Of a stretch of 64,000 bases of DNA, positions 8,966-62,400 are shown piece after piece (positions within the stretch are counted from its first letter, which is position 1; each line of letters opens with the position of its first letter). Both the position numbers and the translations under genes were made by a program. The notes under the pieces are model-generated. The model did not search any database. It saw only the letters and a program-made list of their open reading frames with translations, and was not told where the DNA came from. The stretch is from Phorcus lineatus (lineage: Eukaryota; Mollusca; Gastropoda; Trochida; Trochidae): assembly GCA_921293015.1 (NCBI GenBank), contig OV121081.1:47455877-47519876 (forward strand), written 5' to 3'.

Positions 8966-9161
8966 AGTGTATGAAAGAAAGTTAAAAATGCATATCGTTT
9001 ACCGATTCAGTTTAAATTTATGATGATAATTGCGGAAAAGAATAGTGTTTCAAACAAAGTGTTCTAAGCACGTAGAATACACCTTCCCTATTAATTAAAA
9101 CAAAAACCAAAATTATCATATTATTTTATACATCCAGGATGGTGGCTGCAACTTGGCAACC

Positions 9162-14888: not shown

Positions 14889-15389
14889 TTAACTAAGGTT
14901 AACCTTAACTCCCATGCTTTAACATTGCATTCAGGTTACCTCAAGGACTTTCGAGCACCTAAAGGCTTTGTGAAAGGAGGCCCTGAAACATAAGCTTTTG
15001 GGGGAAAAGTATCCTACGTTTTGTCCCATATCATCCAGGATATTTTTACTTTTTTAAGACATTGATGTTTCAAGGTTATCAACGAGGAAGTCTAGAAGGA
15101 AAACTAAATATGAGAAATTATGAGTTAGTCTGAACAAATGAAAAATAACAAAAATTATATCTCAACTGGTACCAAAGTGGAGTTCTTCAAATTCTTTTGT
15201 TCGAATATTCATGAATATCTTATCAGATCACTAAATTTCGCTTACATGAAAAAGAATGCTCGCAGATGCACAAGCAAGGTGTCATAACCTCCTTTTTTTA
15301 AAAGGGCAAATTTAATCATTTGCTTCAGAATTGGAGACCAATCTTTCAATATAAAATTCGATCCTCAATAATATTAAATAGAATGATAA

Positions 15390-22185: not shown

Positions 22186-22312
22186 TCAGATATATGCGCA
22201 CACGCAGTGACTAGGTACTTCAACTGGAACAAAGTTTCCTGTATGTACCAGCACCCACGTGATCCGGTTCTCCTGTAGACACGTACCTCCGTAGTGACAT
22301 GGTGACCACTCA
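22186..22312 (-). CDS. Cystine-knot gene, exon 3 (terminal)
   Basis: Acceptor ctcttttcacag, then 42 codons in phase, including the TGA stop at 22188-22186. Encodes EWSPCHYGGTCLQENR and ends VPSHCVCAYI. This short reading frame is not an ATG-started open frame and is visible only by splicing. Confidence 0.8.
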
Positions 22313-28300: not shown

Positions 28301-30711
28301 CATGTTGTAGATGTTGATCATTGCGGAAATAATCAACGTCAAAATTACCTTTCCGCGAAAATCCTTCACAACCCTGATATCACTCATGACATTTGCCTCG
28401 CATATCTATCATAGTGCTATCTACTATGTACAATGTCACTTTTCAGCCAGTGCAATGTCGTTGTGTAGGAGTATTAACCAAATATCTAGAATTCAATCTT
28501 CCTACATGTTTCATCCGGGCACTGATGGTATTGCATTTAAGTCATTTAATTGGTTGGTTATATATAGGGATATGCATTTGCCGTGATAGTTATCAAGGTA
28601 TTGTAAGAACTTCGCAGATACAAATACACTTATTCAGTAGAAAAATCATCCAAACAATTTTTGTGACCACATTGTTTTGCAAAATCTAGAAACTTATTTA
28701 TTTAATAGATAATTGGAGCTCGTGTTCAGAATATATTTTTCTATGTTGAGCTGAGATGGAGAAGTAGGTCGTGAATACATTATTGCATATACTGCATTAT
28801 TGGTGTATCACCGTTATTAATCAATTTGTCATCAGGTGAGGTAATACTGTTATCTTTATAACATGGAGTTTTTGTCATAAAATATCTCGATAAACTCTGA
28901 TGTACAAATGTACTTCACTTTATCAAGTATTCCCTAGAAAAGTTTTTGAATATCGATAGCATCTGTAAATTTCGACTGCTATCATATAATGTTAAATCAT
29001 CATACTAAACGATAAGTGTGCTGACGAATACAAAGTATTCTAAAGCTCTAAAGCGAAAAAAGAAATTTGGTAAAAATCACTAGGGGTGTTTCACGTTTCC
29101 GCCCTAAATGACCACAGTTTTCCACAACTAATAATTATCATGAATTTATTTCATTAACCTACTAAACATATAGGAGATTGTTTTTGACTCAATAATATAT
29201 CGCTATTCATAATATCTACATAATTTGTCACAGTGATAACAGAACTAAAAAAAATTACAATTACGAGAATTACGAGAGACACTGAGAGGGGAGTAATTTT
29301 CATTTCCCGGTTTTCAATTACTATTTCGTCTTAACTCGGAGGTAACAAATACGCCATTATAAAAAAATAAGGCAGTTTAAATCATGTGTGTTAAATGCAA
29401 CTACGACATAATTGAATTACATTCCTTGACCAATAGCCAACTAAGGTAATTAACACATTTTGAGATATTATCTGTCCATGATTATAAGATATTTCTTTTA
29501 AGAAATCTCCGTTTTGGAATGTCTAACACTCGTGGATTGAGGAGACTAAAAAGGTTAAAGAGCCACTCCGTGATTTTCATAACATATTATTTACCTTTGA
29601 TACGAACCTGAATGTCATATGTGATATAAAATCAAAAGATCTAAACTTTTCGTGTCCAAAAGACTTATATATATGACAAATAATGGTTTTCCATGAAAAT
29701 CTAAAAACAGCCTTGTAAATGCACAGAGGTGTAGATATCACGTCCAATATACGTGGATACTAGTTATATAACCTAACAAACACTATCAACTCCTAACTGC
29801 CCTCCTGGCTGTTTTAGATAAGACTCCAAAATTACGTTTGACTATTTGACGCATGCCACTGTCCGGTTTTCGATCATAATTGCGACGTTCTACCTTCATA
29901 TTGTCACTGTAAAAAAACTAATCAGCTTTAAAATGTGTCTTTTAGGTAACAGTCGATACCTCGCGATCAAATGGCACCATTGATTAAGTTTGGCATATAT
30001 GACTCTAATAACTCACTGAGTGGCTCTTTAATTGGTCCATTCTAAATGTTCTACATAACTGATGTCTACACATTTGAGTTAAATAAGCTACATTGTGCCG
30101 ACAACATCTCCACTCGATATCAGTATCCTATGAATTCTAACGTAAATACAAAACAAGACTTTCAAAACATATTTCGAGAAAGCGATTTCAGTATTCATTG
30201 TGCGTTAGAAAAGATATACAATACAATAACCTGATGAACGAGGTTGTGTATGCCTCTCCAAAGACATATTCTTATGAATGAAATTCAAGATATTCTTTAG
30301 CAGATTTTTGACTGTTGAAAGTTACTGTTCGTTTGTCCTTTATCATATTTTATAAGCACATGGTAAATGATATGATAGACAGACTTGAAGGACATAAGGA
30401 TTTTCTACATATACTTACGTCTCACAACATGTAGACGATTCTTTGGTTCCACAAGCACTTCCTGTCTTAGATTCCTGCCAGAGACCCGTGGATCCACATG
30501 CTACCGTCAATGGTTCTATTCCTTTAACAGCTGTCAGTTTGTATAGAGGCAACGATTTCTTCGCTATCCCGCTCTGTAATTCTGAAATTTCCTTCTCTGA
30601 CCAAAACAAGCCAGGATACTTTAGTTGAATGTCCTTCTTTGCTCTGTTTGAATTCAAATCCAAGCTTGACGACAATCCTAACGAACTAATGAAAAGTGCA
30701 AAAGTGAACAT
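22186..30711 (-). CDS. Secreted cystine-knot protein, Spatzle/neurotrophin-like (three exons)
   Basis: Join of 30711-30419, 23597-23487 and 22312-22186 on the minus strand: 531 nt, 176 residues plus TGA. Both junctions have consistent phase 2 and GT-AG sites (donors gtaagt and gtgaga; acceptors ttttcaag and tttcacag). Residues 1-16 (MFTFALFISSLGLSSS) look like a signal peptide. Cysteines are at 72, 87, 95, 96, 133, 140, 146, 171 and 173, with one N-glycosylation site at Asn117. The segment from Cys96 to the end follows the Spatzle/neurotrophin pattern: C, a P about nine residues later, V.V..C, PC, C.Q, then PSHCVC four residues from the stop. Spatzle proteins are Toll-receptor ligands. The usual double Cys near the end is His-Cys here. 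Other cystine-knot or IL-17-like families remain possible. Gene structure is firm; the family is tentative. Confidence 0.75.
22828..23218. mobile_element. Foldback inverted-repeat element F in cystine-knot intron 2
   Basis: Imperfect inverted arms of about 90 bp, at 22828-22915 and 23125-23218. Both contain the sequence read as catcctgctgcatcagcg on the left and cgctgatgaagcaggatg on the right. A spacer of about 210 bp carries a second, smaller inverted repeat (gtagcttgaagctac). A fragment of one arm also occurs at 33172-33212, so this is a mobile or recently mobile sequence. Confidence 0.7.
23487..23597 (-). CDS. Cystine-knot gene, exon 2
   Basis: 111 nt between acceptor ttctcttttcaag and donor gtgagacatc; open in the required phase. 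Encodes TMELLQPTTVTG through HVGTCS, with Asn117-Val-Ser for N-glycosylation. The acceptor region is echoed many times in the minisatellite on its intron side. Confidence 0.8.
23600..26510. repeat. Minisatellite complex in cystine-knot intron 1
   Basis: A core of about 24 units of 69 bp (gtagactgaaacatctctat as unit start) spans about 23874-25545. It is followed by units of about 80 bp, then about 67-bp units near 25850-26160 (cctaactgtcgtatttgatg), and further decayed units to about 26510. Degenerate copies fill the gap back to exon 2 at 23597. Read on the minus strand, the units align with the exon 2 splice acceptor and exon start; see findings. An unrelated piece of about 130 bp interrupts it at 26160-26300. 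Confidence 0.9.
26736..26935 (-). mobile_element. SINE family II, 5'-truncated copy
   Basis: Begins on the plus strand with (ggtgag)n, the SINE tail, then gttggtgtttaacgccgctt and tatcgcggctgc. It is homologous to 57673-57936 but is truncated before the tRNA-like head. Confidence 0.75.
26936..29554. other. Intron DNA of the cystine-knot gene, no feature seen
   Basis: Part of the 6.8-kb first intron. Several open frames of 60-98 codons occur on both strands (for example near 28311-28689), but none has a recognisable domain, a good start context or flanking splice signals. I regard them as chance. Confidence 0.5.
29559..30027 (+). mobile_element. Inverted-repeat element A (MITE), copy 3, complete
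   Basis: About 469 bp, bounded by AGAGCCACTCCGTGA at the left and its imperfect complement (ACTGAGTGGCTCT) at the right, with TTAA on both sides. Opposite orientation to the copies in the tandem duplication. It sits in the long first intron of the minus-strand cystine-knot gene. Confidence 0.85.
30419..30711 (-). CDS. Cystine-knot gene, exon 1
   Basis: ATG at 30711; encodes the signal peptide, a propeptide-like stretch with dibasic Lys-Lys pairs at 25-26 and 51-52, and the first four cysteines (CGSTGLW, ACGTKESSTCCET). Donor gtaagtatat follows at 30418. The frame continues in phase 2. Confidence 0.8.
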
Positions 30712-37606: not shown

Positions 37607-38459
37607 ATACGGTCATATGTTAGGTGTTGCTTTAAATTGGTATCAATGGAAAAATCACTGAGAAACTATCAGTTGTTGCTAACTGCGTTTCTGATCTGAG
37701 TGCTTCTCTCAACTTATACTCTTTCCAGTATTAAAATGTCAAAACTTTGGCTAAAAAAACAAATTGTTTTGATGATGACCCAGATTAACCATGAGAAGTT
37801 CTCTTCAACTTTTTTATCAAGATGAGAAGCGTGGATGACGTCGTATGATGTTACAGCGGAAGGGTTTAATTAGGGTAACTGATAGTTTAGAGAGAAATTG
37901 ACTATGGTATATCATGTGAACAGTCTACAAGGAAGTATATCACCCATGTCTCATTTAAACCAAGCGAGCAATCAGTTACTACTTGCGAGGGAGAATCTAT
38001 GCTCCTAAGTCGACAACGGCGATAGATGAGACAAATAAAAATAAAAAAGTTTCGAAACATGTTAGAAACCTTTACATAGAACTTTTTTCACAATGTATGT
38101 GAATAGTTTTAACGCAAATGTCATATATTTAGTTCCAGTGAGCACCACGCTTACCCAAGAGAGCATTCATGCTCACTGTTCGTCAAGTAATGAAAAGTAA
38201 CTGCTGCATCTCAAAAGCATGTTCATTCAGTTGACTAGGTGCAAAGATAATGTATTTAGGCTTTCTTTGAGGCGGAAAAGAAGAGAGAAATTTATTATGA
38301 AGATTGAACAAAGAAGGAAAGTTCATAACCAAAATCAAATCGCTGTGTCCTAATTTCTGTGAACGTACACGGAAGTATCCATGCCTCGTTGGTTGATAAC
38401 CGATATTTAACTTCACAGCAATAGATAAAGAGATTAAACAAGGACTGTTCAGACAAAGA

Positions 38460-39925
38460 CCAGACCTTAACAAAAACATCTCTGTATCTCAACTTCTACA
38501 ATCACGACACGAACGAATCCACGTTTAATATGATGATCATTGTATGTTATATCAATAAATACCAGACCTTAACAAAAACATCTCTGTATCTCAACTTCTA
38601 CAATCACGACACGAACGAATCCACGTTTAATATGATGATCATTGTATGTTATATCAATAAATACCAGACCTTAACAAAAACATCTCTGTATCTCAACTTC
38701 TACAATCACGACACGAACGAATCCATGTTTAATATGATGATCACCGTATGTTATACCAATAAATACCAGACCTTGACAAAAACATCTCTGTATCTCAACT
38801 TCTACAATCACGACACGAACGAATCCACGTTTAATATGATGATCATTGTATGTTATATCAATAAATACCAGACCTTAACAAAAACATCTCTGTATCTCAA
38901 CTTCTACAATCACGACACGAACGAATCCACGTTTAATATGATGATCATTGTATGTTATATCAATAAATACCAGACCTTAACAAAAACATCTCTGTATCTC
39001 AACTTCTACAATCACGACACGAACGAATCCATGTTTAATATGATGATCATTGTATGTTATATCAATAAATACCAGACCTTGACAAAAATATCTCTGTATA
39101 ATCTCAACTTCTATAAACACGACACGAACGAATCCATGTTGAATATGATGATCACCGTATGTTATATCAATAGATACCAGACCTTAACAAAAACATCTCT
39201 GTATCTCAACGTCTATAAACACGACACGATCGAATCCATGTTTAATGTGATGATCACTGTATGTTATATCAATAAATACCAGACCTTAACAAAAACATCT
39301 CTGTATCTCAACGTCTATAAACACGACACGATCGAATCCATGTTTAATGTGATGATCACTGTATGTTATATCAATAAATACCAGACCTTAACAAAAACAT
39401 CTCTGTATCTCAACGTCTATAAACACGACACGATCGAATCCATGTTTAATGTGATGATCACTGTATGTTATATCAATAAATACCAGACCTTAACAAAAAC
39501 ATCTCTGTATCTCAACGTCTATAAACACGACACGATCGAATCCATGTTTAATGTGATGATCACTGTATGTTATATCAATAAATACCAGACCTTTACAAAA
39601 ACATCTCTGCATCTCAACGTCTATAAACACGACACGAACGAATCCATGTTTAATATGATGATCACCGTATGTTATATCAATAGATACCAGACCTTAACAA
39701 AAACATCTCTGTATCTCAACGTCTATAAACACGACACGATCGAATCCATGTTTAATGTGATGATCACTGTATGTTATATCAATAAATACCAGACCTTAAC
39801 AAAAACATCTCTGTATCTCAACGTCTATAAACACGACACGATCGAATCCATGTTTAATGTGATGATCACTGTATGTTATATCAATAAATACCAGACCTTA
39901 ACAAAACATCACTGATCACTGTACG
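38460..39925 (+). repeat. 102-bp minisatellite with an open frame across all units
   Basis: About 14 units of 102 bp. Because 102 is divisible by three and the unit has no stop in one frame, a 461-codon open frame (38530-39915) results, with 34-residue repeats such as NKYQTLTKTSLYLN. Two subtypes form blocks: FYNHDTNES in the left units and VYKHDTIES in the right units. The frame ends exactly where the array decays and has no recognisable domain, so I treat it as repeat rather than gene. Confidence 0.9.
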
Positions 39926-40520
39926 TTATACCAATAAAGAATGTTCAGATAATGAAAACCAACCATAAAAAAATCAGTGTTTCTCAACTCCTGTGAATGG
40001 TCTACATGGACTCATATCCTATGTCTCTTTTGATTACCATCTACTAACAATAGATAAGGAAAGTAAATTAAAATGATCAGAAAATGAACACGTCCTTAAC
40101 ATAAAGTCTGAGGTTTTCAATTTCTGTGAATGGGCACGGACGAACCCATGTTTAGTTTGATGATCACTGTATTTTTTACAAATAAAGATTGTACAGACAA
40201 TGAACATCACCCATAAGATAAAAAAAATATATATTGTCAGTGTTTCTCAACTCATGTGAATGATCTACATGGACGTATGGACCTATGTTTCTTGGGATGA
40301 CCACCGGTCAGTAACTTCCACCAATAACAATAGATAACGAGACTTATAAAGAATGTTCAGACAATGAACCATTCATTACATAAAGTCTTGATTTCTCAAC
40401 TTCCGTCAATGTTCTAAAAGTAGATCCTTTGTCTTATTGGACAACCACTGATATGTAACTTAGTCCGCCCAATAGCAATATATATGGGAATTGAATGTAG
40501 ACAATAATGTTCGTAGCATG
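39926..40520 (+). repeat. Decayed long-unit relatives of the 102-bp minisatellite
   Basis: Degenerate repeats with a longer unit, containing tctcaactcctgtgaatg, a gatcactg-type block and caataaagaatgttcagac. Similar pieces precede the array at about 37900-38460. The 102-bp unit looks like a shortened, amplified derivative of these. Confidence 0.6.
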
Positions 40521-44400: not shown

Positions 44401-47400
44401 ATAACCCAACATCAATTTGTATGCCAAGGGCTTAAATTTCCATAATCCACAACCTGACAAAAGTCATGTCAAATAGCGACAAGTCTACCAACTCTCGCTT
44501 CGATGAGAAATGGCGTCCGCGCATATCGGGTAAAAAAATGTGCTCGAACGTTGATCTGAAAAAAAAAACATTATTTCACGAGAGGTAAACCAATTCCATT
44601 GCCAATACATCGTCATAACAAAGAGAGAGTATTAGGACTTGAGCAAAAACCAGGAGCACAATGATAAGTTGCCTCTTCTCTGCATGAAGGTCGATATCTG
44701 TTTACGCTAGACCACCATAGGTTGGCATGTCATATGTACACCTGCACCATAGAACCTGGGGCAGTTGGAATCAGACGTCTTCGACGTATATGACAAAACC
44801 GGGATAAGCACATAGTTCAAGTCGTATTTTGATCGTTTTACAAATGAAACAAAATGTTCAGATAGTAAATGAGCATTTATCATTTTCAACAAGTGTTGAT
44901 ATACTTGATATCAGAAGATACAAATTGAGATTCTACACATCAACTAAATATTTCGCATTTTATCACACAAACAAACTCTTTGTCCTCTATTAATATACAA
45001 AGGGCGGTCCATGAGATCAACAAACCGATGAAACCAAAATAATTCTTCTAAAGTTATAAATGACAATCAACATCATATAAAATATACAAAAGCATTAGTG
45101 TAAGGATTTATCAGTAGTGAAGCTTTCTACTGATGCTGACATATTTACTCTATTGGGTTACTTAAACAGTCCTCAACATTTTCATTACTTGCCTTAGAGT
45201 ACTTACTTTTTCAGGGGTTGTCGGTTTTATAAACACAGACGTAGATTGCACTACCTGTTCATCAAACACGATACCTCAATTATTTTAAACAATGTGTCCG
45301 CCATTTACATTCTTGGATGTCGTAAACTGATCCCATCATATTTCAGATAAGACATCGATGAATATAAACTCTTACGTCCTCAGCGAATGGTCCTGTAATT
45401 GAAAGTCGCCTGTTTGTGTCACGATGACCCTTTTTATCGTTACGTTGTCTAACAGGCTCAAAATAGTATTTCAGTAGTGTCTTATGTGACTGCGTTTCAA
45501 GTGATAAAAAGATAAACCCTCATATGATAACTGTAAGTATGATTTAAATCTCGAACCTTTTAGATCACGCTCTAATTGAGCAGAATAAAAGCTATAGGAA
45601 GAGGACGATACACGTTTGTTCAAGTATCGTTTGTTCTTGACCGACAGCGAAAATACCTCCAAAGATACATAGCAATATGGTAAGATAGCGGTCGTCAGCC
45701 TCGACAGTGATCAGTGGTCGTACTCGAAGTTCATCCATTACAATATGATCAAACACATGTTGATTTGCTGTTACTGTCATCAGTTTGATGATTCTGATAA
45801 AACATCCCGGAATCAAAGCTGATTCATGTTTTTGCTTTGATCTCAAATTAATTTAATAGCTATTGCATTCGTTGGTCACGACAGTCTATAGCTGTTGCAT
45901 TATGAAGTTTTAATAGGCAAGTAATGATAAGGCAATAGTCCATTCCATATTGAATAGATACAGTAACGAGTGACCAAGGTCAGCGTGTTTTCTCCAGGGT
46001 ACATATACAGAGAAATAATAAGTGATGGGTAATTGTAAATGACTAGTAATGATTTTGCAACAGTCCAATCAGGTTCTAAGTTAAATAAACACAGTAACGA
46101 GTGACCAAGGTCAACGTGTTTTCTCCATGGTACATATAAAGAAATATGATAAGTGATGGGAAATTATTATTGACTAGTAATGATTTTGCAAAAGTCCAAT
46201 AAGGTTCTAGATTGAATAGACACAGTAACGAGTGACCAAGGTCAACGTGTTTCTCCATGATACATCTAATGATCGAGATCCGGAGTTTAGGTAAAGGAAG
46301 AGATGCCGGAAGTGTTGATTTCCTCGAGAGGGTCTCCCTTTGTATAAACAGCGAGATACCAGGGACACGGGATCGGTCACGTTTCATGCACGAAATATTG
46401 AAATTATGTTCCTTTGATATTTTATTTTGGTATTTTGTCATTTGGTTAAATGTTGTTTGGTAATTTGGTATTATGGAAATTGATGATGTCATATTTTTGT
46501 ATGTCAGATTTTGATATTTGGCATTGTGATATTTTGTATCTGCGTAGCTCCTTCAAAGTTATTTCGGCCGGAATGCCTCATATCGCAGTACATGATCAGA
46601 CAATCAGATGATTCGCATCAAGCAAAGGCGAATGAGAAAACAGGGCTTAGGGTCATAACGTAACCACCATCAACCTCTTTTAAAAAGAAAAATTACTTAG
46701 ATGCCCCCTTAGTTGAAACATATTCTAGTTATAAAGTAAAGAAAAGTTCTTCCAGTTATTTGGTTTGTAAGCTCAGAGAATAAAACTACGCACGTTATTC
46801 TAAATTGTGATACCATTCGTTAAAATCCTTGTGATTGGCGTGATTTATATATCGTGCATTGGATAGTCTCCCAGCCGATTCAATTTAGAACCACGCTAGT
46901 AGAAATAATGAATAAGGCATATTTTGAATCGTACATAACAGTTTAAGAAACAAATAGATTTAAAATACTGGATGACGAAATTCACAATCCGCGTACCCTT
47001 TGAAAGAACGTTCTGGAAGAAGATAATCATAAACAAATTCTTTCTTAATTAAGGCATTAGCGGGATACAATGTGCTTGTTTAAATAATTCCATTTCTGTA
47101 ATTGTTCTTGTACATTATTAGATTATTTAGCAAAGGTCTTCCCTGTGAAACGTTGCATATTTTGAAAAATTGAGCCAATACTGAAGGGTCGAGGTACATC
47201 ATTCCGTGAAATGAGCTGTGGTCATATAAACTAATAACAACATTAACTAACTGCTTTAGAGAGAGAGAGAACAAGCCTTTGGACATTGGTTTTGATTTTA
47301 TGGAAGTTCCGTTTTTCCCCACCAATTAAATTATATTGTTCTTATATATAGATATGAAAATAGCTCTATTGTCAGGTTATCATAAAGGAATTTTACAAGC

Positions 47401-50400
47401 GTAATTGGGCCTTTATACATCAAATCGTACTTCAACTTTTAGGCTTGTTATCAGTCTCTAAATCTTCCTTCCCAAAAGATATCTTAAGTTATTTAATAAG
47501 GAGAAAGAGCCTGGCAGAAAGTTGATATCGGGAGGTTTTTCATTCCGATTATAGATTTTCTTTTCGAGATTATGTTTCGGAGATTTTATTCAAGGTAAAT
47601 CAGGTAATGTATGTAAGAAGATTTTTATTTTGTTCAAGTGAGAACCTAGACAATAGCATCATCATAAAACACTGTTCCATTGATTTTTTGTGTATGTTTC
47701 AGTTCGCCTACATGGACAGGTCTGCACCTGTGCAATCACTAAAGAGGAGTGCGTGGGTGGGGAGTGTCTTTGCAGATCGGGATCTGAGAGAAGCAACACC
47801 ACGGATATGTGCGGTAGCTAGATATTTTATGGCACTTCAACCAATAAGATGACAAGAAAATGCTATTTGGATAAATTTGTAAACCCGACAGTTTGATTAA
47901 ATAGATACCCATAATTACTAGATTATTACACTTTCTACAAAGTTTGTCAACTTGCAAGATATTCCTAGATGGGTTAGGACAATTGTATGAGAAATGCTAC
48001 CTTTATATATGTGTGTGTGTGTTTGAATGATGTTGTTTGACAATTGGAAGAAATAAAGGTAGCATTTCTCATACAATTGTACTAACCCATAAATATATAT
48101 ATAGTACATCGCGTAATTTACCTCGAGAAAAATTGTAAACAAATAAAAAATGATAAAATGTCTTATTTTCAATCAGCACAAACACCCCTTCGCTGTTGAC
48201 AAAAAAGTAAGAGAGGGTCATCTCAATATCCAATCTTGAGTCAAAAATCCGATATAGTATTAATAATTATATACTTTGTTGAGATATTTTTTTCTTTGAA
48301 GAGGTGTCATGGGCGAGTTGCATTTTTAATTAACCATATGAATGTAATGTATATACATACATGTACACACATTTCTGGTATATAAACTAGATAAACAACA
48401 TGAGATGGCCCCTGAAAGTCAATTTTCCTCTCCCACTCAGGCTTTAATTTGAAACTCATTTCTACATTGATGTGCTGCATAGCCGTGTTAAAAACCATTG
48501 AAAGTTTCATTGTTACTCCTTTTTTAGAATCCAAGGATGGGGAGTTTGAACTTACCCCCGCTGACGGATGGTATAACAACCTACTTCATCCAGACTGGGG
48601 AGGCATAGGTAGGTGTTAGAATCAAGAGAGACCATGAAACGTCTGTGTTAGATTAACCACCTCCGTCCAGACTGGTGAGGCATTGGTAGGTGTCCGAATC
48701 AAGAGAGTCCATGAAACGTCTGTGTTAGATTAACCACCTCCGTCCAGACTGGTGGGGCATTGGTAGGTGTCCGAATCAAGTGAGCCTATGAAAGGGATCG
48801 ATGTATTGCAATAGCCTCCTTCATCCAGACTCGGGAGACGTAGGCAAGGGTCCTGAGCTGGCAAAATTTACAGTTTAACAGTAATAAAATTAATTTTCTC
48901 AACATGACATTTTTTGCAATAATATCTTAAGCTTTATACCTACTTATCTACTTTTTTCTATTTATTGCAATGTTTTAGCATGATGAACAAAATATAACTT
49001 TAAAATTTCTTCACCACCAATCACGATTACATTTCAGATGGCCAGTTGTTACGACGAAGCCCGACTGCCTACAGTGACGGCGTGTTCGAACCCTCTGGAG
49101 CAAACCGACCCAACCCATTCGAGATCAGCGATATCGCACATGACGGTGTTATTGGTAGAGGGTCGCTGAGAAACCGCAACGCTCTCATGACGTTTTTTGG
49201 TATGTGTTCAACATAGATAAAAACTCAAAAGAAAAATCACCAACTTGCTATGAAGATTAACAAACAACAAAAAAACGCTTGAAGTTTGAGATAACGGAAG
49301 TCTTATAAACACCCAATCATTAATGTCGGTATATGGAAACGTATAGCAACTGGAAATGCTGATTTGACTATTTGTCTTAGAATGATATCCTACAATAGCT
49401 TTTGTCCATTTTCATTTTTCGTTTTGGGACATGTCTTGGTAAGATAGTTTATTTCTGTCAAAGAGGCCACAGGCCCATAGGACATAACATTCATGACATT
49501 TGCAAAATACATATGTTTTTTAAAGAAAATAATCATATGGGGCTTGTCAGTAAAATGGTACTGAGTTTCCATTTCATATCCATCACAGCATTAAGAGATG
49601 AGTTGTTTAGGGTGTTTACCATAATACACGCTGTCCCTGTGAATCTGTGAATTTTATGTTAAAGATAAGATGTGTATGATGTCACGCATCACGCGAAAAC
49701 GTCATGCGGCCATTTTAGCATAAACACCTTTTAATCATTAAACTTAAGAAATGGATTCACGTAACTTGGTGAAATTGGTATGTTAGTTAAAACATTCATG
49801 TATTTATTTCAAAACACTGTCTTTCAAATAGTAATAATCTTTTTCACTTTACTTGATATTCATTTACTTCACTTTGAATACCAGCTACAATGCAAGTCAA
49901 ATTAGTTGACCTAAGATCAACCCACAAATCCACCCCTCCCCCCTTTTTACTCCAACACATATCAAAGACAAATAGAATCAAATATGCCATCGCTTTCGGC
50001 TACCAAGGTAGATTTTATGCTGCTTCTTGACTTTTTTATGGGATAAAACAATATTAGATATTAGTAGTTATGTTTTAATTTATTCAGAATGAATAAGTAG
50101 CTTCCCTCAATGCAATACTTTTACACTGTTATTCAGAACAAACGGAATATAATATTGGCTCGTAGCATTAGGTTCACGACAGCCTATTGTTATTAATGCA
50201 CGTATGTTTCACGAAATCGTCATTCAGCAGTGTTGAAAGAAATCGTAAAACAATCAGATATCAGCGATATTACCAGATTTTCTAAATTGACCCAAATCAA
50301 ACCTAATATATTCAAATTGAACAAGAATAAACTCGATTTTTTCCTCAACAAGTTGCGTCTGTGATATGATATCACTATCAAACTCGTAAAATATTATCTA

Positions 50401-53400
50401 TCACACTTGCATCATTAAATGTGAATATGTTAATTGTTCAATATAACCAGAAGAAAAAAGAAAAAAATGGAGCAGGTATAAACACGATTATCAAACATCC
50501 TCCCTTTCGCTCGTTCAATACCATATCAAAATATGAATCGTTTATTATGAATTTGAAAAGACAAGTAATTGTTTTAGCATCTTGGAAAGATAAGCTTTTG
50601 CACACACCATCGCGTATTTCATACCAATTTCAAACCAAATTAGTATCCCTTATATCCCTATGTCACACAGTGTGAATTTGTCTTTTATTATGAAATAAGT
50701 GTCTCTCTTATAAAAATATAATTTTAAACTCTCTCGCTACAGGTCAGCAGGTTGTCGAAGAGATCATGGACTCACAGAGACCCGGATGTCCGCGGGAGTT
50801 CTTCAACATCAAGGTACCCAAGAACCACACGTATTCGAGACAAACCGGACTAGACGATCTGGAGATGCCCTTCCTGAGGACCAGATACGACCAGAGGACT
50901 GGATACTCGCCTAACAATCCCAGACAACAGGTGAGTGAGCCTTTGGTCCAATATCTATGATCCAATAGCTAGGGTCGTATATTGCATCCAGCACAAATCT
51001 AAGACCATCACATCCATAGACAGGATACTCAAGACATTCCTGCCCCAGTTACAATGTCGGTCCTTGTTAGAACTGAAAATTTGCAACACTCATTCTTATC
51101 CACTGAAATATTTTGTCTATACAGAAATATGTACGCATCGCACACGTGACAGAAATCTTTTTAAAATGTTAATGGTTAACGGATCAGACCAAAAACGTTG
51201 CGGATACCAAGACTAATTTCGATTTACTTCCATTCAGATTTAGTCATCCCCAGCTCTGAAATTGCTCAACTATTATAGAGGTAACTTTCGAATGAATGAC
51301 CTGAGTAACTGAGTATGTCATCGAATTCTTCAGCTGCCAGTTTCGTAACAGTGAGGAGCAATTTATGTTTTTTTACATGAGATTTGCGTTTTAAAATAAA
51401 TGATGAAGAACACATATTCCTTTAAATCCAGCTCAACGAAATCACCCCATACATCGATGGAAACCTGATGTACGGTTTCGCGAAAGCTTGGACAGACACC
51501 CTGAGATCCTTTAAAGACGGAAAGATGGAGGCAATGGACAACAACGCCCCCTTGACCGAGAGTATCCCTGTTCAGAACAACATCAGGCTGCCCATGGCAA
51601 ACCCTCCTGCACCCGCCCTCCATATGCTCCGACCCGTCACCAGATTCTGGCGTAAGCTTTCCACAAAGGAACAAAGGCTGCGTTTGATTTGGCGGCTCGA
51701 ATGGCGATTGTCTCATCTTACAGGGTTGAGACATATGCCGTTAAAGGTCGAATCACAATAACGAATAATGAATTATGTTGTGTGGTAAAAGTTATATGCG
51801 CGCATGTGCACATTTGAAAAATATGAAGCTGGTTATGTTTAACTGAAAGTTGAAGTTACAAATTTTTCAATGTCTAATCGATCATATCATGAATCATATG
51901 CTACCTAATGATTGAACTTTATGGTATTCCTCAAAATCATTTCGTCAGTAATCAAACTCGTCAGCAGGTTTAGGTTAGACACTAGACAATGAGAAAATGG
52001 CACCAAGACTGGTTGATGGGATGAAGAAAAAATCTTAACAAACCTCGCCTCCGCCAACAAAAATAATCCTCCCACGAATATCTATAAAATTCGTCTGCGG
52101 GTTAGGTTACTAAAGACTCGATGAGAATACTCTTGCTTATATTTTTAAAATTCGCCTTTAGTTAACGTAACCCTCGAGCCAATGAAAATTTTCTCACTAC
52201 ATCTATGAAATTCGCCTTCCGGTTTAGGTACCAAAAGAAATAATGAAGATATTTTCGCTTATATCTATAGACTCGTCTGCAGTGTTACACAACCAAAAAA
52301 TAAATAAATAACCCACGAGGCAACGAGAATGTTTATATCACCTAAACTCGCCTGCAGTTTTAGGTAACCATAGAACCCATGATAACACACTCTCTCATCT
52401 ATAAAATTCGCCTACAGATTTGGGTTACCCACGAGGCAATGTGAATGTTCTCGCTAATATCTATAGTATTCGCCTACAGGTTTAGGTAACCCACGAGGCA
52501 ATGAGAATCCGCTGCTGCTTTCGTTCGGCGTGATGTGGTTCAGGTATCACAACTTCATAGCGCAACAGCTCAAGGCAGACCACCCAGATGATGAGGAGTG
52601 GGATGACGAGCGCATCTTCAACGAGGCCAGGAAACGGGTCATTGCACAACATCAGGTCAGTCGATAAAACACTTTTCATAAAAAGAACCTGAATGGCATT
52701 GCCAGTGTCTGATCAAGAGCTGGGTGGAGGGAGGCTAATGGAGTGGGTGTACATTTATGCAAATAGAGTTCCAAATAAGGTTGATATCACACATTTTCTT
52801 TATTCTTTGCAAAAGGAGGAGGAGAAGGGGATGTTTGTTGGTGGTTTAAATTGAATTCTCATCACCATCACCTACCAATCCTCTTGGGTCCATCACTATC
52901 CGTACCTTACCCATCGTTCTCCCTCAAAAACGATAATCCATGAATTGACAAAATTTAGGTTCAAATGATTATCGAATTAGACATGAAAACGATAAACTCA
53001 TGTTCAACGTGTTTTATCGGTTGAGGGTCTGTAAAAAAACAATTTCGGTTTAAAGAGGTGTCGGGATACAGGGAATGGAATATTTGCTATGAAAATAACA
53101 AAATAAAGAAATTTCAGGTATCTTTATTTTGTATTGTATGACTGAAATTCTGTTCATAAGAGGACATGCATTTTTGTGAATACCATACAGTAGTCTTAAC
53201 GGTTAAAATACCTGATACCATAAGTACTAACATTTCATTTAACGTCAAATAATAATGATGAATAGTTTCACAGAAAATGAGTATAAGTCTGTATTAGATG
53301 TAGTGGCTTTCGGTGGAATGAACTTTCGTAGAAATAGATACTTAGTCAAATACAGGTATCACACAATGACCACGACAGGCTGTTTCCACGAGGTTTGTTT

Positions 53401-56400
53401 AATGATGTTCCAATATTTTGTGCTTTCAGAAAATAGTGCTGTATGACTGGTTACCAGTATTCCTCAAGGTGGACCAGAACCAAACCATCATGGACTTGAG
53501 AAACGATCATCCATATGCTGGTACGTTCTTTAAGTTAATTGGAATCTCTTTCATCTCAAGAGTATATTTGTTCCTTTAAGCAGTCTGATTAAAATCGACC
53601 GTGTTCCGAGGAATAAAAGTTTTGAAATATTGATTCGAACGTACTCTATCAGGGGCTATCCTCTCCAACAACGGTCTGAAAGCATCCTCCTTGCTCGTAC
53701 GTTCTGACTCCAGTTTAGTGCAGACAAAACCTATTCACCCAGCGGACCAATCACATCATCGCGTTTGAAATAAAGATAGCGGCGATCAAGTTAAACGAAT
53801 GGTAAACGGGAGTTACTTGCCCCTAGATACTGATACCGAAGGCTTTTGCCTGAGTCATTGTGATTGGCTAGTTGTGAGTGCGTCAGAACGTGCGAGCAAG
53901 GAGGATGCTTTCAGACCGTTGTGGAGAGGATAGCCCCTGATAGAGTACATTCGAATCCCGCTAGATAAATTTTAAAACGTTTATTCCTCGAAAAACGGTC
54001 GATTTTAATCAGACTGTCATTTAAGCGTAATGTACACTGCGGAGCACACTATGTATAAAGAAATAAACACATTACAAACATATTTCAATCAGCAGAGACC
54101 ATATTTGATATACCAAAAGTGCTGAACGCATATTTTAGATGGTGAGGTCTTAAACCTGTAAATGTACAGAAATGAAGAACTTATTCTTGATTTTTAAAAA
54201 TTGCATATTCGCATTATATCTGGCCATAATTCTGACTATACAGGCTACAACCCGAACATCCATCCCGGAATCTCACAGGAGATGCAGACCGCAGCCCTAA
54301 GATACGGACATACTCACGTTGTGGCAGGTGTTCTAACCAGGTGAGTGGGCTGAAACTCATTCCCTTGAAGGGGAAGTAGCACAATTTTCCAGGTTAACAA
54401 AGTAATCCATTTCCCTACAGTAAATAATTTAAATTAATTGTGTAATTTCTGTTTGATACTTGATACTTTCTTCTAGGAAATATATAGATTGATTATATGT
54501 GGGTTTGACATATGGCATAAACATTTATTTTGAAAATGTGAAGAAAGCTAATTTTTTTAAAATGCTTCTGCCCCTTTTAAACAAGAAATTTACAAATCTT
54601 TAGATAAAACTCTGTATCGAACCTGCAGCCTGACTTTGATCAATCGAACCATTCTGTACATCACGTGCACAGAATCAGAGAGAAACTTGAGGAAAGTATT
54701 GCGTAAACATTCTTTTGCCCTTATTCTGCAACCATTAAAACACCGAAAGGTAAGATGTGTTAATTGCACTTGTGCATGAGTCCATTTTCAAAACGAAGGT
54801 GAACCATCAGGGTCTTGTTCGGTTTATGGACAGACGTTTTGTTGAAATCATTCGTATTACACGAAACTATTATCATATTAACCAGATCGAGGGCCATGGT
54901 TATAAATGGGTATAGGTTGACACCTTAGAATTAATCAATATCATTTTAGTTATCATAATTCATATACTTTCCCGAAGACATGATAAGCACTTCAATGACG
55001 TCACGGTCAGTCTTTATGTCGACGCAGACGTTGAATTTGCTTAAACATGTGTTGCTACTGAGCTTTAAAATATGATAACCCCATTCCCCCATCCCCACCC
55101 TTCCTGAAATTTTTACTACAGGCAGGTTTATTCTACTGCAATGTTAATGTTAACAGAGTACTTTCCCTCATTTTCTACCAGAAACGTAAGCGGTGATCAG
55201 TGCATTGAAAGAAAAACCTTTCTAACCACGGGTGATGGACACGAGGCCAAGGGAATTCGACTTTGTCAGGCCTATTGGAGATCTCAGGTAACAATACTAG
55301 ACAAGATATCTATTGACCAAAGTTAAATAATTTGCATTGAAATATTTTCTATATCTCAGCGTCTGAGATCTCTCATAACATATGAATGTTAAAGGAGATA
55401 TCGGTGCGCATCCTCGCTCTCTGAGAGCCATAAATTATGCCATAAATTACTTTTTTGATGCAACAATAACTTGCTATATTTTGTATCATTTGTCAGTATA
55501 CTGTCCAGAGACATGTAGCTCAGTTTATACAGTAAACTGCTTTGCTGTGAAATACGACCTGCATTATTGAAAATAAGCAATAAATAGAGGATACTAAACG
55601 ATCTTCCATTTGATACTATTTGAATTAAACGAGTTCATGATTAAGTATGAAACGAGCGAAAGCCAGTTTGACACCAAATCATTGACGAGTTTAATAAAAA
55701 TAGTATTAAACTGAAGAAAGTTTAGTATTCTGTTTATTACTTGAGCTCACTAATCAAGCATGATTGCCGAAAGAGTAATGAACGGAAATTTTCAGCGACT
55801 TGGCCGCCATTGTAACGGCGGTGCCAACATTATGACGTCACAACCACACAATATTATGATGTCATACGTGCAGCGGTATTACACTAGTTTAATATCACTG
55901 TATAAATATTGCACTGCAGTATTTTTCACGGGCGATTAATAAAAGTTAAACAAGTTCGGAATTTTGGCTCAGTTGGATATGACAACACACAGCAATAAGC
56001 TCCTCTAGCATCACATGTGATGAAAAAAGAAGAAAAAAACCTGTAACAGGCGTGTCGGTTCGAGTACTAAGTGCACGTTTTATGAAACGACCCTCGAGTG
56101 TTTATATGAACTCATTACAGTGTATAAACAAAACCGAAACGAAAATCTCTGCGATCAGAACACATAAACTTTACAGACACCAAGATGGAAGCGCAAAGTT
56201 ATCGTGAAACCTCTGCAGATAGTCTTCTGAATGGTCCCCTTGTTACGTTAGAACCATCTGTTAAAAAGGCTCAAAGAAATATCATCCACAAAAGACATTT
56301 CATCGTCTGCATTAATATGCCACTTTACTAAGAAATAATTTATCAATAAAGAGTATGGCCAAATATCAAACAAACCTTTCATTGTAATGTTTTAAATGTC

Positions 56401-59400
56401 AGTGTATTGTTCCGGTGTTTTAGGAAGTCTTGGCTGAGCAGAACAGTCTGAACATGAGCGAGATTATGCTAGGGATGGTCTACACTAAGGCTGAACGGGA
56501 GGATCACATCATGGTACCAGACCTCAGAGGTACGTATATATCGTCCCTGATATAGCAATGTAGAAATGAATACACTCCAGAGCGTTTAAACAATGTATAA
56601 TTGATCACAATCAACAAATTGTTTCAACAATGTCGAAATGATCACATTCTGCAGATTGTTTAAACAATGTCGAAATGATCATAATCTGCAGATTGTTAAA
56701 CAATGTATGAATGATTATACTCCGCATATCGCTTAAACAATGTAGGAATGATCCCACACTGCAGATTGTTTAAGCAATGTACATATGATCATAATCTAGG
56801 AATGATTGCACTCTGCAGATTGTTTATACAATGTACATATGATCATAATCTAGGAATGGTCGCACTCTGCAGATTGTTTATACAATGTACATATGATCAT
56901 AATCTAGGAATGATCACACTGTGAATATTGTTTAAACAATGTACATATGATCAAAATCTAGGAATGATCACACTGTGAAGATGTTTAAACAATGTACATA
57001 TGATCAAAATCTAGGAATGATCTCACTCTGCAGATTGTTTAAACAATGTAGGAGTGAACACAATCAGCCGATTGTTTAAACAATGAGGAAATTATCACAA
57101 TCTGTGGATTGTTTAAACAATCTAAACATGATCAGAATCAGCAGAACAAAATAGTTAACACCCTTTAATTGTAAGCGAAAATAAATAAACACTGACTGAA
57201 CAAATTATTTATTCCAAATGTACATAAACTTTCCATTGGATATGATTCAAAACATACAAGGACATAAGCTTTGTAATGATTTTAAAGTTCACGACGGTTA
57301 TATTTTACTTTATCGACGCTATTATGCTACGTTCGTAATGAATAAAAAAAGTTTTAAAAACCAAAACATTATGTGTGATTCTAACTGAGGCATACCTTTA
57401 GAATTCAAAATAGTCTGAAACCAATACCTGATCTTCCAATCCACGGTTATTATGTATGAAACTATTCCAGAACACCTTCATTACGCCCTGTGTGGAACGA
57501 AGTTCTTCACTCTTTTCTTGAGATTTCGTGTAATTCTTTCTGGTACTAAATATACCAAACCTTTTCTGAAAACCTGACATCATAGGAACAATGTGGTACG
57601 GAATGTTCAAGAGCTATTCCGGAATATCTCACTCTATCACTCCTTGTGATACTAATATCCAAACCATTAGGGTGAGGTGAGGTGAGGTGAGTTGGTGTTT
57701 AAAGCCGCTTGCAAGATTATTTCACTTATATCGCGGCTGCTAGGATTATTGCAGGGAGAAAGCCCGCAACACCATTGTGGTTATGCATTGCGGTGAAACC
57801 TGCGGGCATCGGAACTAGCGAGCCATGGGTGGTACTGCGCTGCAATTCAGTGTAGCATTGCACCCAAACCTTACTGCGTGTAGAACAATTCGCTACTGCA
57901 GACAAAGTTGCCGAGCCCCTGGCGGGATTCGAACCACCAAACCATTAGGGAAAAGCGTGTGGTACATTGTTCTTCATTCTCCAAACCCATTCTTGAAAAC
58001 CATAGCTCATACCATTTTAGGATATACTAAATAATCCAAACTTAAGATTCACCGGAAACACTCACGACATATCATTCCATGAGATCCTAAATGTTCAATA
58101 TCTTCCCCAGAAACCTGACCTCTTATTGCTCCACGTGATACTAATATTCAAAACCATCTCGGAAAAAGGTAACCCTATGTTATTCCATAAGATACTTCAT
58201 GTTCCAAACCTTTTCCGGGAAACCTCAAATCATATGATCTATACGGTACTGATTTTCCAAACCCATTCTTGAAAACCATACGTCATACCAATTTATGTGA
58301 TACTTTATTTGTGATAAATACTTGATTTGGTTTGTAACACTATATAACAATACTCTAATAAATCAAATCATTATTTCTGCAATAAAATATATCAATGTAA
58401 TATAAAAAAATGATACCAAAATTAAAAAACTATCTAAAGATTTTGAAGGAAAGTTTCCATGTTGAAAGATACATTTTAAAAAAAACAATTGGAAAATTTC
58501 AACACAAAATGGAAATCACTGATGCCAGTATTCACGGAATAATGTACAACAATCCATATATCTAGATTGATATTTTCATTTTGAATGTCTCTTAATTGTT
58601 GTTTTTTTTATGTCCATATATCATGCTCAAACTCTGTCACCTATATGAGAACTCATAAAAATTAAAAATAAAATGTGATACTTACTGTTGCAAACTTAAG
58701 ATTCTACAGTAAACCTCAACGCATATCGTTCCATGAGATACTAAATATTCAAAACCTTCTCCCGAAAACCTCAGCTCTTATATTTCTATGTGATACTAAT
58801 ATTCAAAACCTTTTTGGAAACACTCACTTCACAGCATTATATGTGATGCTAAATGTTCGGAACCGGCTTTCGGAAACCATCTCTCCAGAAAAGTATGTAA
58901 AATACTCAATGTTCCAAGTTTATGATTCTCCGGAAAATCTCACCATATATCATTTTATGTGATACAAAATGTTCAAAACCATCTCTGGAAAACCTTATCT
59001 GATAAGATTTAATGTGTACTAAATCATTAAAACTTTTCCGGTAAAACCTCGACTCGAACCTTATATGTGATACTTAATTTTCAAAACCTTCTCGCGGGAA
59101 AGCTCCTCGCATATTATTCTATTTATACTAAATATTTTATACTTTTTCCAGGAGACCTGTTTGGCCCTTTAGACTTTTCCCGTCGTGACCTGGCAGCTCT
59201 CAACATACAGAGAGGCCGTGATCACGGTCTTCCAGGCTACAATCAGATACGCAAAGCTTACAATCTGCCTCGCGTTGAGAAGTGGATGGACATTTATAAT
59301 GATACCCGACATGGCTCTGAAGGGGACTACAGCACAGAACTCCCAGCTGTTAGAAGACTACCTAATCTTTTCTTACCTTGTCATTTGTACTATTCGTAAC

Positions 59401-62400
59401 GAATTTTGCACTTTCACAAATCTAATCGTCAAAGGAAGTAAGCCTTTCTAAAGAAAATCTTCTGAAAAGAACGTATTAAAGAAGTCTTTAAATCATCAAA
59501 AGTGGTTACACATGCTGGATAATAACTGTCATTTGCTAAATAATTAAAGTACTTGTTAGTTCATAATTATATCAATATAAAAGCGTAAAGTCGATCGAAA
59601 ACCGGACAATGTCGGAATCTTATGAGCGCCAAAGTGTCAACGGATATTTTGGAACACTGTTACATATTTTGAGTATTTATGCGATGGAAAGTATTTCCGA
59701 CCTCATCTGTTGTAGTTCTCCATTCCTATGTAATACGTGTATGTTTATGCAGATACTAAATGAACTGAAGAAACTGTATGGCAACACTGAAGCTCCAGAC
59801 GAACTAGACATCTTCACGGGAGGTCTCCTGGAGACGAGTCCAGATGGTCCTGGGGACCTATTCACTGCAATCATGTTAGACCAGTTCCTGCGCATCAGAG
59901 ACGCGGACCGATTCTGGTATGAGAACAGGGATAATGGGTGAGTGACTGTCTAATATAAACATTATGAAAAAGGATTTAGAGGAACGCCATCAGTGACCTA
60001 GGGCTCGGCAACTTTGTCTGGAGTGCAAAACTGTTCTATATGCAGTAAGATGTTGGTGCACTGCTACACTGCATTTCAGCGCTGTACCACCTTTGGTTCG
60101 CGCAACACAAACTATATCCGTAAAATGAAAATTCTTCATGCATGGATATCAAGTTTGTTATAACCGACGCCAAAGAAATGATGCAGTCGCATCAAAGTTC
60201 ACATTCGAATAAGGTTGAGCTTTCCTGGAAATATATAAACTTTTATTCCTCTTGAAGAGAGTACAATGCTCGTGATTTTTGAATTATCACTTCACTTTTG
60301 CACTCTTATATTGTTTCGGTATGTTGTTAACAACATGTAGATACGATATAAGAGTGCATCTTTGAAAGGTTTTATTAAAAAAAATATATTTTATCTCTTG
60401 ATATCGACGGTGCTGTTAGTTTTGCATAATTGCGATGTTACAAACCAGCTTCCCGTATCAAGGCCACAGTCACCGATATTGGCCTGGAGTCAAAAAGTCA
60501 AAGTTTACTGTCATGACTCATCCCGGTGCAGGGAAATCCAGGTTCAGTGTGTTGAAACAGTTCACATTAAAGAGCCACTCCGTGATTTTCATAACATATT
60601 ATTTACCTTTGATACGAACCTAAATGTCATATGTGGTTATATAATATCAAAACATAACTTATGTCCAAAAGACATATATATGACAAATACTGGTTTTCCA
60701 TGAAATTTAAAAACAGCCTTATAAATGCACAGAGGTGTAGATATCACGTCGAATATACATGGATACTAGTTATTTAACCTAACAAACACTATCAACTCCT
60801 AACTGGCCTCCTCGCTGTTTTAGATAAGTCTCCAAAATTACGTTTGACTATTTGACGCGCGCCACTGTCCGGTTTTCGATCACAATTGCGAAGTTCATTA
60901 TTATCACTGTAAAAACCCAACAAGCTTTAAAGTGTGTCTTATTGGTAACAGTCGATACTTCGCGATCAAATGACACCATTGATTAAGTTTGGCATAGATG
61001 ACTCCAACAACTCACGGAGGTCTGACATCATTACGTGAAATGCGCTGCGGTTTCTGAAGTGTAACGTGCGCTGATATTGGTGGGTTATGACTCTCGGTCG
61101 GCCTGATCTTGGTCTGTCTGAGGTCTGTCCCGAATGACGATAACGTTGCATTAATCTTGTGACAGTTGTATGGTGACAGCCAAGCATTCTTGCAGCATGG
61201 GTGTTGGTGACTCCGATTTCAACCATCCGGATTGCTCGCTCACGTTGTTGTAAAGTCATCTTTTCATTCTTCAAGTGTTTTTTTTACAAAGTGGGTGTCT
61301 GACAATCAATTCACATTGGTTTGCTAAACGTCGGGAGTGGGGCTATTTTGCTTTGCATGAAAAAAGTGAAAACCATAATTTGACAAAATGTGGGAAAAGC
61401 ATGCGTTTTGATACCACAGTTCAATATGAAACAATCATTGTTGTATTTGGGCGATGTGTTTTCATGCGACTGCGGTTGAATCTGAGTTCGATTTTTTCGT
61501 AATTTCAAATCTAAAGTTGGTGGCGTTTCTTTTGCCCGTGAAGTTATCAACGATAATTTATAATTTGATTTCTTTAGTTACTTTTTGAAATTATATAGAT
61601 AGTCTTCAAAACATATTTGTATATGACTCGTTTATTCTAGCTAAACTGCCATTGACATTAAGTGACATTCTTATAAATTTATCACACGTAAAAATGCTTA
61701 GTCATCTTAAATTTAATTTCAAAGCTTTCCAACGTGCATATCATTTCCACGCAATTGAATATATGTAGTGTTCGGATTTATTGACTTTAAGCTGCAGGAT
61801 GTTTACTTGAAATAATAATGTTATTCTTTTCAGATTGTTCACAGATGATGAAATCGCTATAATTAATAACGTTACGCTTCGTGACATCATTCACGTGACA
61901 ACTGGAATTGGCTATGATTTGCTTCCTACAAATGTCTTCATTTGTGGTGAGTGTATATTTTAGTTCGACTCGTTTTCCTACATAAATATTTCAATATCGA
62001 TTCGGGTTACATCGTCGGACTCTATTCAAATCTACCAGTCGTAAAATGAAACAAAAGTGATGACGTCAGCATGAGGCTGCAGCAATAGTTTCAGAAATAA
62101 ATGAAACACAAATGTTAAATATCAGTCTTAATTCTTGACAAAATCAATGTTCTACTTATGGGGAAAATGTCTTTAAAATTGAGACAAGTTTGCGCGGTCT
62201 GCCTTGGACTCCCCGATAGCAAAATTAAAATTTCAATGCTAGTAACTTGATGTTTTAGATTTTAGGGCTATAAATTCTAGTTGATATCTTTAAAATGAAA
62301 AAGATTCAAAAATAAAACGAGAAACTCATTCCAGGACTTATATTTGCATAATTAATAATGACATTATAACAAACTGATGTCACTATATTATCTTATGACG

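Follow-up and report, generated by a model that had tools for sequence, protein, structure and literature searches.

The window analysed in this study, a stretch of 64,000 nucleotides (64 kb) from the genome of Phorcus lineatus, holds part of a DUOX gene on the forward strand and, on the reverse strand, a gene for a small cysteine-rich secreted protein, here called the knot gene. The DUOX product carries an animal haem peroxidase domain (E = 6.4e-134), its best solved relatives are Dual oxidase 1, and its best relatives of fitting length come from gastropods, with bivalves close. A preliminary description of the locus had spoken of a cystine-knot gene; the cysteine-rich secreted protein was recovered, whereas "cystine-knot" is a label of that description only, with no relative of the protein found in Pfam, PDB or a protein search. 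All splice sites, in both genes and outside them, are predicted; for DUOX, the donors of exons 20 and 26 were left unplaced and the 3' half of the model may miss small exons.

41436–63919, forward strand: DUOX exons 1–16, open reading frame, splice sites predicted
48528–48608, forward strand: DUOX exon 2, whose last ~31 nt and donor open the intron 2 array as its first unit
52480–52655, forward strand: DUOX exon 6, predicted
59152–59348, forward strand: DUOX exon 11, donor tentative
30711–30419, 23597–23487 and 22312–22186, reverse strand: knot-gene exons, in frame, splice sites predicted
23487–23597, reverse strand: knot-gene exon 2 of this in-frame model

The following tandem repeats are relevant to these genes, and all but the last two cross a splice junction.

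48578–48868, forward strand: DUOX intron 2 array, ~77-bp unit, 4 copies, spanning the exon 2 donor
51943–52513, forward strand: DUOX intron 5 array, ~61-bp unit, 8 copies, the last extending ~34 nt past the exon 6 acceptor (52480)
57526–59157, forward strand: old DUOX intron 10 array, ~56-bp unit, 12 aligned copies, the last crossing the exon 11 acceptor (59152) by about 6–7 nt
23561–26550, reverse strand: knot-gene intron 1 array, 67–69-bp units, 36 aligned copies counting the one at the junction, with ~36 nt of exon 2 covered
22298–22461, reverse strand: two copies ~108 bp apart at the knot-gene exon 3 acceptor (22312)
45907–46272, forward strand: DUOX intron 1 array, 131-bp unit, not junction-spanning
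56549–57145, forward strand: second DUOX intron 10 array, 37/54-bp unit, beginning ~20 nt past the exon 10 donor, not junction-spanning

The knot-gene exon 3 case is absent from the preliminary description, which had also placed all four of its arrays within 48528–59152, although the knot-gene array lies outside that range at 23561–26550. The intron 5 array is missing from the TRF list at a minimum score of 30, and the ~56-bp-unit array of intron 10 is interrupted by a SINE-like insertion. In the arrays at exons 2 and 6, every aligned unit, the outermost included, joins exon-derived to intron-derived sequence, as do all units of the knot exon 2 array except one trimmed unit, and each of these three arrays shares 31–36 nt with its exon. 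The splice dinucleotide (AG or GT) survives in 36/57 non-junction copies of the window, very unevenly between arrays, so that the proposed rows of decoy splice sites were found at exon 2 (GT in 2/3), exon 6 (AG in 5/7) and knot exon 2 (AG in 28/35), but not at exon 11 (AG in only 1/11 other units) or knot exon 3, where AG is lost in the single extra copy (0/1). With a score of 6.9, the two intact decoy donors of exon 2 come close to the real one (7.0). Each decoy checked would lead to a premature stop if used (exon 2, 3/3; exon 6, 7/7; six knot-array sites of 42 scored).

In a blind local-alignment test, each of the 34 junctions with an intron entirely inside the window was compared with its own intron and with 40 or 100 shuffled introns. 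All four arrays of the preliminary description were recovered, together with a fifth case: in DUOX, z reached 36.6 at the exon 2 donor and 16.3 and 4.6 at the acceptors of exons 6 and 11, and in the knot gene it reached 7.6 at the exon 2 acceptor and 11.5 at the exon 3 acceptor, the fifth case. Next in rank came the exon 7 donor (z = 3.8), which was left uncounted and whose match falls in an inverted repeat (53581–54016), and then a junction at 2.1. Profiles built with the junction copy left out, for the four arrays but not for the two-copy knot exon 3 case, from units first located by junction-seeded profiles, ranked the adjacent junction first of 34 in all four arrays, clearly for three and barely for exon 11. 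Adjacent junctions scored 60.0 (exon 2), 52.6 (exon 6), 9.9 (exon 11) and 18.5 bits (knot exon 2), compared with 5.2, 4.7, 6.2 and 4.6 bits for the best of 1020 shuffles. The exon 2 profile also assigned 9.8 bits to the exon 8 donor, and this stray match scores as high as exon 11 does with its own array, which leaves exon 11 (E = 0.03) as the weakest of the junction-spanning cases. Across the 64 kb, junction-seeded profiles recruited only units beside their own junction.

A uniform 40+30-nt probe, for which matches over 40 bits were skipped as self, gave own-intron matches at E up to 1 for 4/34 junctions, with knot exon 2 found at E = 0.14–0.9 only and no own-intron match for exon 11, whose detection needs more intron flank than this probe has. 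As controls, 2/34 probes matched elsewhere (E = 0.51 and 0.84), and 12/340 shuffled probes matched anything. The observation made from the sequence is confirmed, and the proposal that the units of each array derive from the junction beside it is supported; such copies recur in both genes and at a few other places in the genome.

It had further been suggested that the intron 5 unit at the exon is the best preserved, as if new copies were born at the junction. The former observation holds (mean identity of the junction copy to the rest of 0.67 vs 0.58–0.64), but identity to the junction copy showed no fall-off with distance in this array (rho = −0.36, p = 0.43). The knot-gene array, the largest, speaks against birth mainly at the junction, with near-identical units ~270–1930 bp from it and the junction copy as an outlier of 0.52–0.69 identity. 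Growth at the junction end was rejected on the unit identities in the DUOX and knot arrays. A homogenised interior with an excluded edge copy is clear in the knot-gene array; the arrays at exons 6 and 11 gave no clear sign of it.

A junction-independent census of the window yielded 14 repeat families, 7 of them within the two genes, and 5 of these 7 reach a junction, a count that includes the last exon 11 unit as taken from the leave-junction-out profile. When eight non-junction arrays were compared with all junctions, no splice-junction match stood out from shuffles; the match of the 37/54-bp array to the exon 10 junction window starts ~25 nt into the intron. A 135-bp repeat beyond the knot gene gave an 8.7-bit match to the region after the knot stop codon, beside the repeat's own edge.

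Outside the window, codon scoring of sampled stretches gave 65 candidate segments, and from 60 of them 28 were chosen by eye as exons of multi-exon genes, providing 56 junctions; segments that looked single-exon, transposon-like or unclear, or that duplicated DUOX, were set aside. Spanning copies occurred at 4/106 further junctions: one elsewhere in DUOX, two in the upstream DUOX paralog at other exons and one in an NPC1-like gene ~20 Mb away, the last being the only case among 38 junctions of evenly spaced samples. Spanning positions differ between the tandem DUOX paralogs, with the exon 23 donor at z = 8.8 in this DUOX vs 0.3 in the upstream paralog, and the two sides of exon 25 at 11.3 and 8.3 in the upstream paralog vs −0.5 and 0.1 in this DUOX. 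Up to ~215 bp separate copies at junctions outside the window. The DUOX exon 28 donor (z = 3.7, under the cut-off of 4.5) and the paralog exon 23 acceptor (z = 9.4, from an intronic repeat ending 15 nt before the exon) were left uncounted. In total, nine cases were found among 140 tested junctions, and both edge types are affected (one donor and four acceptors in the window, three donors and one acceptor elsewhere). In the NPC1-like case, an alignment read by eye places most differences between copy and exon at third codon positions, and the copy may represent a used duplicate exon instead of a silent repeat.

We consider it probable that these repeats are junction-spanning minisatellites of the kind termed "mirages" in amphioxus, arising from local tandem duplication over an exon edge and tolerated thereafter. 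Ordinary minisatellite birth would by chance cover an exon edge, splicing would continue to rely on the copy that adjoins the exon body, and the protein would stay unchanged while the extra copies turn into intron; unequal exchange or slippage could then expand the array interior, with the edge copy escaping homogenisation, the pattern seen in the knot gene. Tandem duplication families are frequent (27 in 200 kb sampled), and with local duplications this common a large gene can acquire several. The idea of a shared process that duplicates junctions is partly supported: the copies recur in both genes, and junctions are over-represented in the window when founding events are counted. A special junction-seeking process is not needed, and random duplication with tolerance may explain the pattern.

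The strongest competing view, which we regard as possible though rather unlikely, is that junctions are true hot spots where transcription or splicing predisposes exon edges to short tandem duplications, with far more minisatellites born there than elsewhere. A count of founding events shows an excess at junctions in the window (5 cases vs 0.25–0.38 expected); P for at least 5/7 genic families at a junction is 2e-6 to 4e-5 if seeds are placed and 9e-8 to 3e-5 if whole arrays are placed, the value varying with how much overlap is demanded. However, the window was chosen for this very pattern, and P rises to between 2e-4 and 1e-3 once junction copies are allowed to remain detectable for double the time, giving a range of 9e-8 to 1e-3 by assumption. 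Enrichment elsewhere in the genome is only suggestive (P = 0.009 to 0.21): the 106 other junctions gave 4 cases vs 0.79–1.18 expected (P = 0.009–0.03), but 0.075–0.21 with doubled detectability, three of the four cases lie in neighbouring DUOX genes, and the evenly spaced samples yielded 1/38. By position, no junction enrichment was found in the window (5/34 junctions vs 37/262 intronic points).

An improbable alternative is that intronic arrays came first and grew to the exon, where the AG or GT inside a unit was taken over as splice site. It fits exon 11 best, with ~7 exon nt in common and AG in few other units, but agrees poorly with the long shared exon part at exon 2, exon 6 and knot exon 2, present even in the outermost exon 2 and exon 6 units. 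The DUOX exon residues at these two arrays are conserved in other animals, which sets the direction there as exon to array; at exon 11, the exon part is too short to judge direction. Retention of the repeats for splicing regulation, with decoy sites slowing or tuning exon use, appears even less likely: two exon 2 decoys score like the real donor and many splice dinucleotides are intact, but the AG columns of the knot array are conserved at 0.94 and 0.86, within the range of other columns (0.56–1.0), positions differ between paralogs, and the decoys checked lead to stops. That short splice signals resemble one another by chance is hardly credible. In favour of this view, pyrimidine-AG and GT-rich motifs recur in introns, the exon 11 match taken alone is modest, and the exon 2 profile has its stray exon 8 match; against it stand the shuffle, cross-junction (with seven cross-intron probes listed) and leave-one-out controls for the other window cases, and chance similarity is rejected for four of the five, exon 11 staying modest.

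Mirages, the tolerated duplications to which we compare these arrays, are minisatellite-like tandem duplications of exon-intron boundaries described in the amphioxus genes Adh3, BflGb6 and BflGb9 (globins), troponin C and PGBD5 (PMC3087553, PMC3902484). According to the portions of these reports considered here, both systems have units that span a donor or an acceptor, comparable unit lengths (10–160 bp in PMC3087553 vs about 56–108 bp in the window), AG or GT kept in many but not all copies, and a homogenised interior from which the cluster boundary is excluded, here clear in the knot gene. Unlike here, where the best DUOX relatives of fitting length are molluscan, those accounts cover lancelets only, and we count the copy number of up to 36 as a further difference. 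A known tandem duplication crossing an intron-exon boundary gave a new intron, whereas the copies here stay in the old one. In molluscs, intron 3 of the abalone TSSK1-like gene holds a 27-bp intronic minisatellite (PMC6905558), similar in being intronic, although the part of that report considered mentions no exon edge within the units. Among the matches listed from the open-licence literature, short of a full survey, we noticed no report of junction-spanning minisatellites in molluscs.

The nine cases suggest that the process behind junction-spanning minisatellites is no lancelet oddity, and they would offer a countable system for two old questions: by what means the spliceosome selects the correct copy from a set of near-identical sites, and whether intron gain draws on tandem duplications that cross junctions. 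A bolder and rather doubtful reading is that minisatellites in a mollusc genome arise preferentially at exon edges, with several per cent of all junctions bearing living or decayed rows of splice sites and fast turnover between paralogs; its odds are lowered because of the single case in the evenly spaced samples. If true, such birthplaces would provide, beyond the chordates, a large natural source of intron gain, exon shift and splicing noise.

The repeats lie in two genes of the window, which is animal DNA with a GC content of 35%:

41436 to beyond the window end, plus strand: DUOX, from its start
minus strand, three exons: knot gene, encoding a small secreted cysteine-rich protein

In a protein search, the best DUOX relatives of fitting length came from Batillaria, a gastropod (57% identity over 71%), and Elysia, a sea slug (55% over 73%), and a fragment from the bivalve Solemya (60% over 50%) ranked lower in the list; for the knot protein, no relative was found in Pfam, PDB or the protein search. 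A cysteine-rich open frame is also present in DUOX intron 1 (47684-47818), outside the DUOX model.

Blind alignment of all 34 junctions with an intron entirely inside the window (up to 40 nt per side) to the remainder of their own introns, using 40 or 100 dinucleotide-preserving shuffles as control, revealed five outliers: the DUOX exon 2 donor (z 36.6), exon 6 acceptor (16.3) and exon 11 acceptor (4.6), and the knot-gene exon 2 (7.6) and exon 3 (11.5) acceptors. The next-best junctions reached z 3.8 and 2.1. All four junction-like arrays named in the preliminary description were thus recovered, and the knot exon 3 acceptor is a fifth case that it had not named. Each of the five probes scored lower against other introns than against its own, exon 11 by a narrow margin (18 vs 16). 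Profiles iterated from the junction copy recruited 4, 8 and 11 units for DUOX exons 2, 6 and 11, and 36 and 2 units for knot exons 2 and 3, and every unit recruited from the entire window on both strands adjoined its own junction.

In the reverse direction, profiles built from the units of four arrays without the junction copy, units which had themselves been found by junction-seeded profiles, were scored on the 34 junctions and 1020 shuffled ones. The adjacent junction ranked first in 4/4 arrays, with 60.0 (exon 2), 52.6 (exon 6), 9.9 (exon 11) and 18.5 bits (knot exon 2) against top shuffled scores of 5.2, 4.7, 6.2 and 4.6 bits, so that the earlier proposal that units resemble the adjacent boundary held against its shuffled control. 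As the exon 2 profile also gave the DUOX exon 8 donor 9.8 bits, a stray match that cautions against low scores, the exon 11 array is only probably, and not provenly, a copy of its own acceptor. This assignment is supported by the final unit (59101-59157), which abuts the one before it (59046-59101) with the register unbroken.

In a census of the window with 2132 tiles, made without reference to junctions, 14 families of local same-strand repeats were detected. Seven fall within DUOX or the knot gene, and five of the seven include a junction; the census interval of the exon 11 family ends at 59114, its last unit being added from the leave-junction-out profile search. The probability of at least 5/7 was 2e-6 to 4e-5 with founding units placed randomly in introns and 9e-8 to 3e-5 with entire arrays placed randomly, and that of at least 4/7 was 1e-5 to 1e-3 across both models, values to be read in light of the window having been nominated for this very pattern. 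By position, repeats cover 37/262 random intronic points of both genes vs 5/34 junctions. The excess is in founding events and absent in coverage.

Other repeats were also observed. The DUOX start codon is preceded, at a distance of ~1 kb, by a 2.1-kb array of a 102-bp unit (38331-40446), across which a 496-codon open frame runs, and DUOX intron 7 holds an inverted-repeat (MITE-like) element (53581-54016). A direct duplication of several kb with conserved order (2557-6733 and 11168-15368; 89-91% identity) also takes in 1-1672 and 7393-9161. Four copies of a dispersed ~450-bp repeat share 88-92% identity (60567-61019, 29555-30020, 14428-14892, 5827-6256); an open frame on the minus strand (60969-61283) is a candidate for the helix-turn-helix beginning of a Tc1-type transposase.

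At exons 2 and 6, the exon-derived portion of the units specifies amino acids that are conserved in a Dual oxidase 1 of known structure and in other animals, and the exon therefore preceded the array at both sites. Regarding growth, the knot array comprises 25 units at 23.9-25.5 kb, with neighbours 86-100% alike, and an older subfamily of 10 units at 25.6-26.5 kb, while the identity of the junction copy to other units is 0.52-0.69. Near-identical units inside and a divergent junction copy show that, for the knot gene at least, new copies originate within the array. The earlier view that they arise at the junction does not agree with this, nor with intron 5, where neighbours are 0.55-0.77 alike with no significant trend; there, coding constraint may hold the junction copy near the ancestor, making it look well preserved. 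The intron 10 array is interrupted by a presumably SINE-like element (57673-57851) and hence predates its insertion; the other copy (26737-26919, 89% identical) lies in the knot gene, so that introns of both genes carry one.

The splice dinucleotide is retained in 2/3, 5/7 and 1/11 aligned non-junction copies at exons 2, 6 and 11, and in 28/35 (one of the 35 being a gap) and 0/1 at knot exons 2 and 3. A small scoring matrix, for which the other junctions of the window (17 donors, 13 acceptors) served as training set, gave 6.9 for two exon 2 decoys vs 7.0 for their real donor, 0.4 to 4.6 for exon 6 decoys vs 7.1 for the real acceptor, and a median of 3.2 for 42 CAAG sites in the knot array, some of them out of junction register, vs 2.3 for the real knot acceptor. 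Use of any decoy checked, which were all three exon 2 copies, all seven exon 6 copies and six of the 42 knot sites, is predicted to give a premature stop, a count including copies without the splice dinucleotide. Following established exon-definition ideas, the correct copy would be recognised by its attachment to the exon.

Beyond these introns (genome 958 Mb, 74 contigs), twenty 10-kb samples of the window's contig contained 27 local repeat families, covering 3.7%. Blind testing of the remainder of DUOX, a set of 24 junctions that begins with the exon 16 donor inside the window, gave a single positive, the exon 23 donor (z 8.8). Among 56 predicted junctions, three were positive: a donor of an NPC1-like gene (z 8.7; NPC1 identity E 2.4e-15) and, in a DUOX paralog lying upstream, the two junctions of a single exon (z 11.3 and 8.3), while 26 additional paralog junctions yielded no junction-spanning copies. 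Compared by eye with the end of the NPC1-like exon, its copy in the intron (L026:6081-6420, L026 being the sample with this gene) has most of its differences at third codon positions, as a formerly coding sequence would, and is possibly a duplicated alternative exon. Overall, 4/106 junctions outside the initial set and 9/140 in total were positive (evenly spaced samples 1/38, DUOX remainder 1/24, DUOX paralog 2/34, glycosyltransferase-like gene in the flank 0/10). Junction-spanning copies thus exist outside the window. For 106 junctions, the founder rate with a 55-nt target predicts 0.79 to 1.18 (P 0.009 to 0.03; 0.075 to 0.21 if exon-bearing copies are recognisable twice as long), and enrichment there is only suggestive, most cases being in DUOX genes. 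A duplication process that seeks out junctions would be a possible, bolder reading.

The second DUOX gene lies upstream on the same strand (stretches L008 and L029, C1:47436577-47456376, C1 being the window's contig), and DUOX is therefore tandemly duplicated. In the window gene, copies occur at the donor of exon 23 and exon 25 lacks them, whereas in the paralog both edges of exon 25 have copies and the donor of exon 23 has none; of the paralog, exons 2 and 6 lie outside the comparison and exon 11 entered with only 182 nt of flank. The arrays are therefore independent gains or losses after the duplication.

Comparable structures are known as mirages, minisatellite-like tandem duplications of exon-intron boundaries in amphioxus that have been proposed as an origin of new introns (PMC3087553); PGBD5 was added as a case, with troponin C cited (PMC3902484), and in potato a junction-crossing duplication created a new intron (PMC4974935). 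No report of junction-spanning minisatellites in molluscs was found among the literature matches listed. The window arrays and mirages are alike on the four features compared: units include the boundary, donor and acceptor cases both occur, AG/GT is kept in many but not all copies, and, clearly in the knot array, the interior is homogenised with the boundary excluded. The observation in Phorcus lineatus is real, and of a kind already known.
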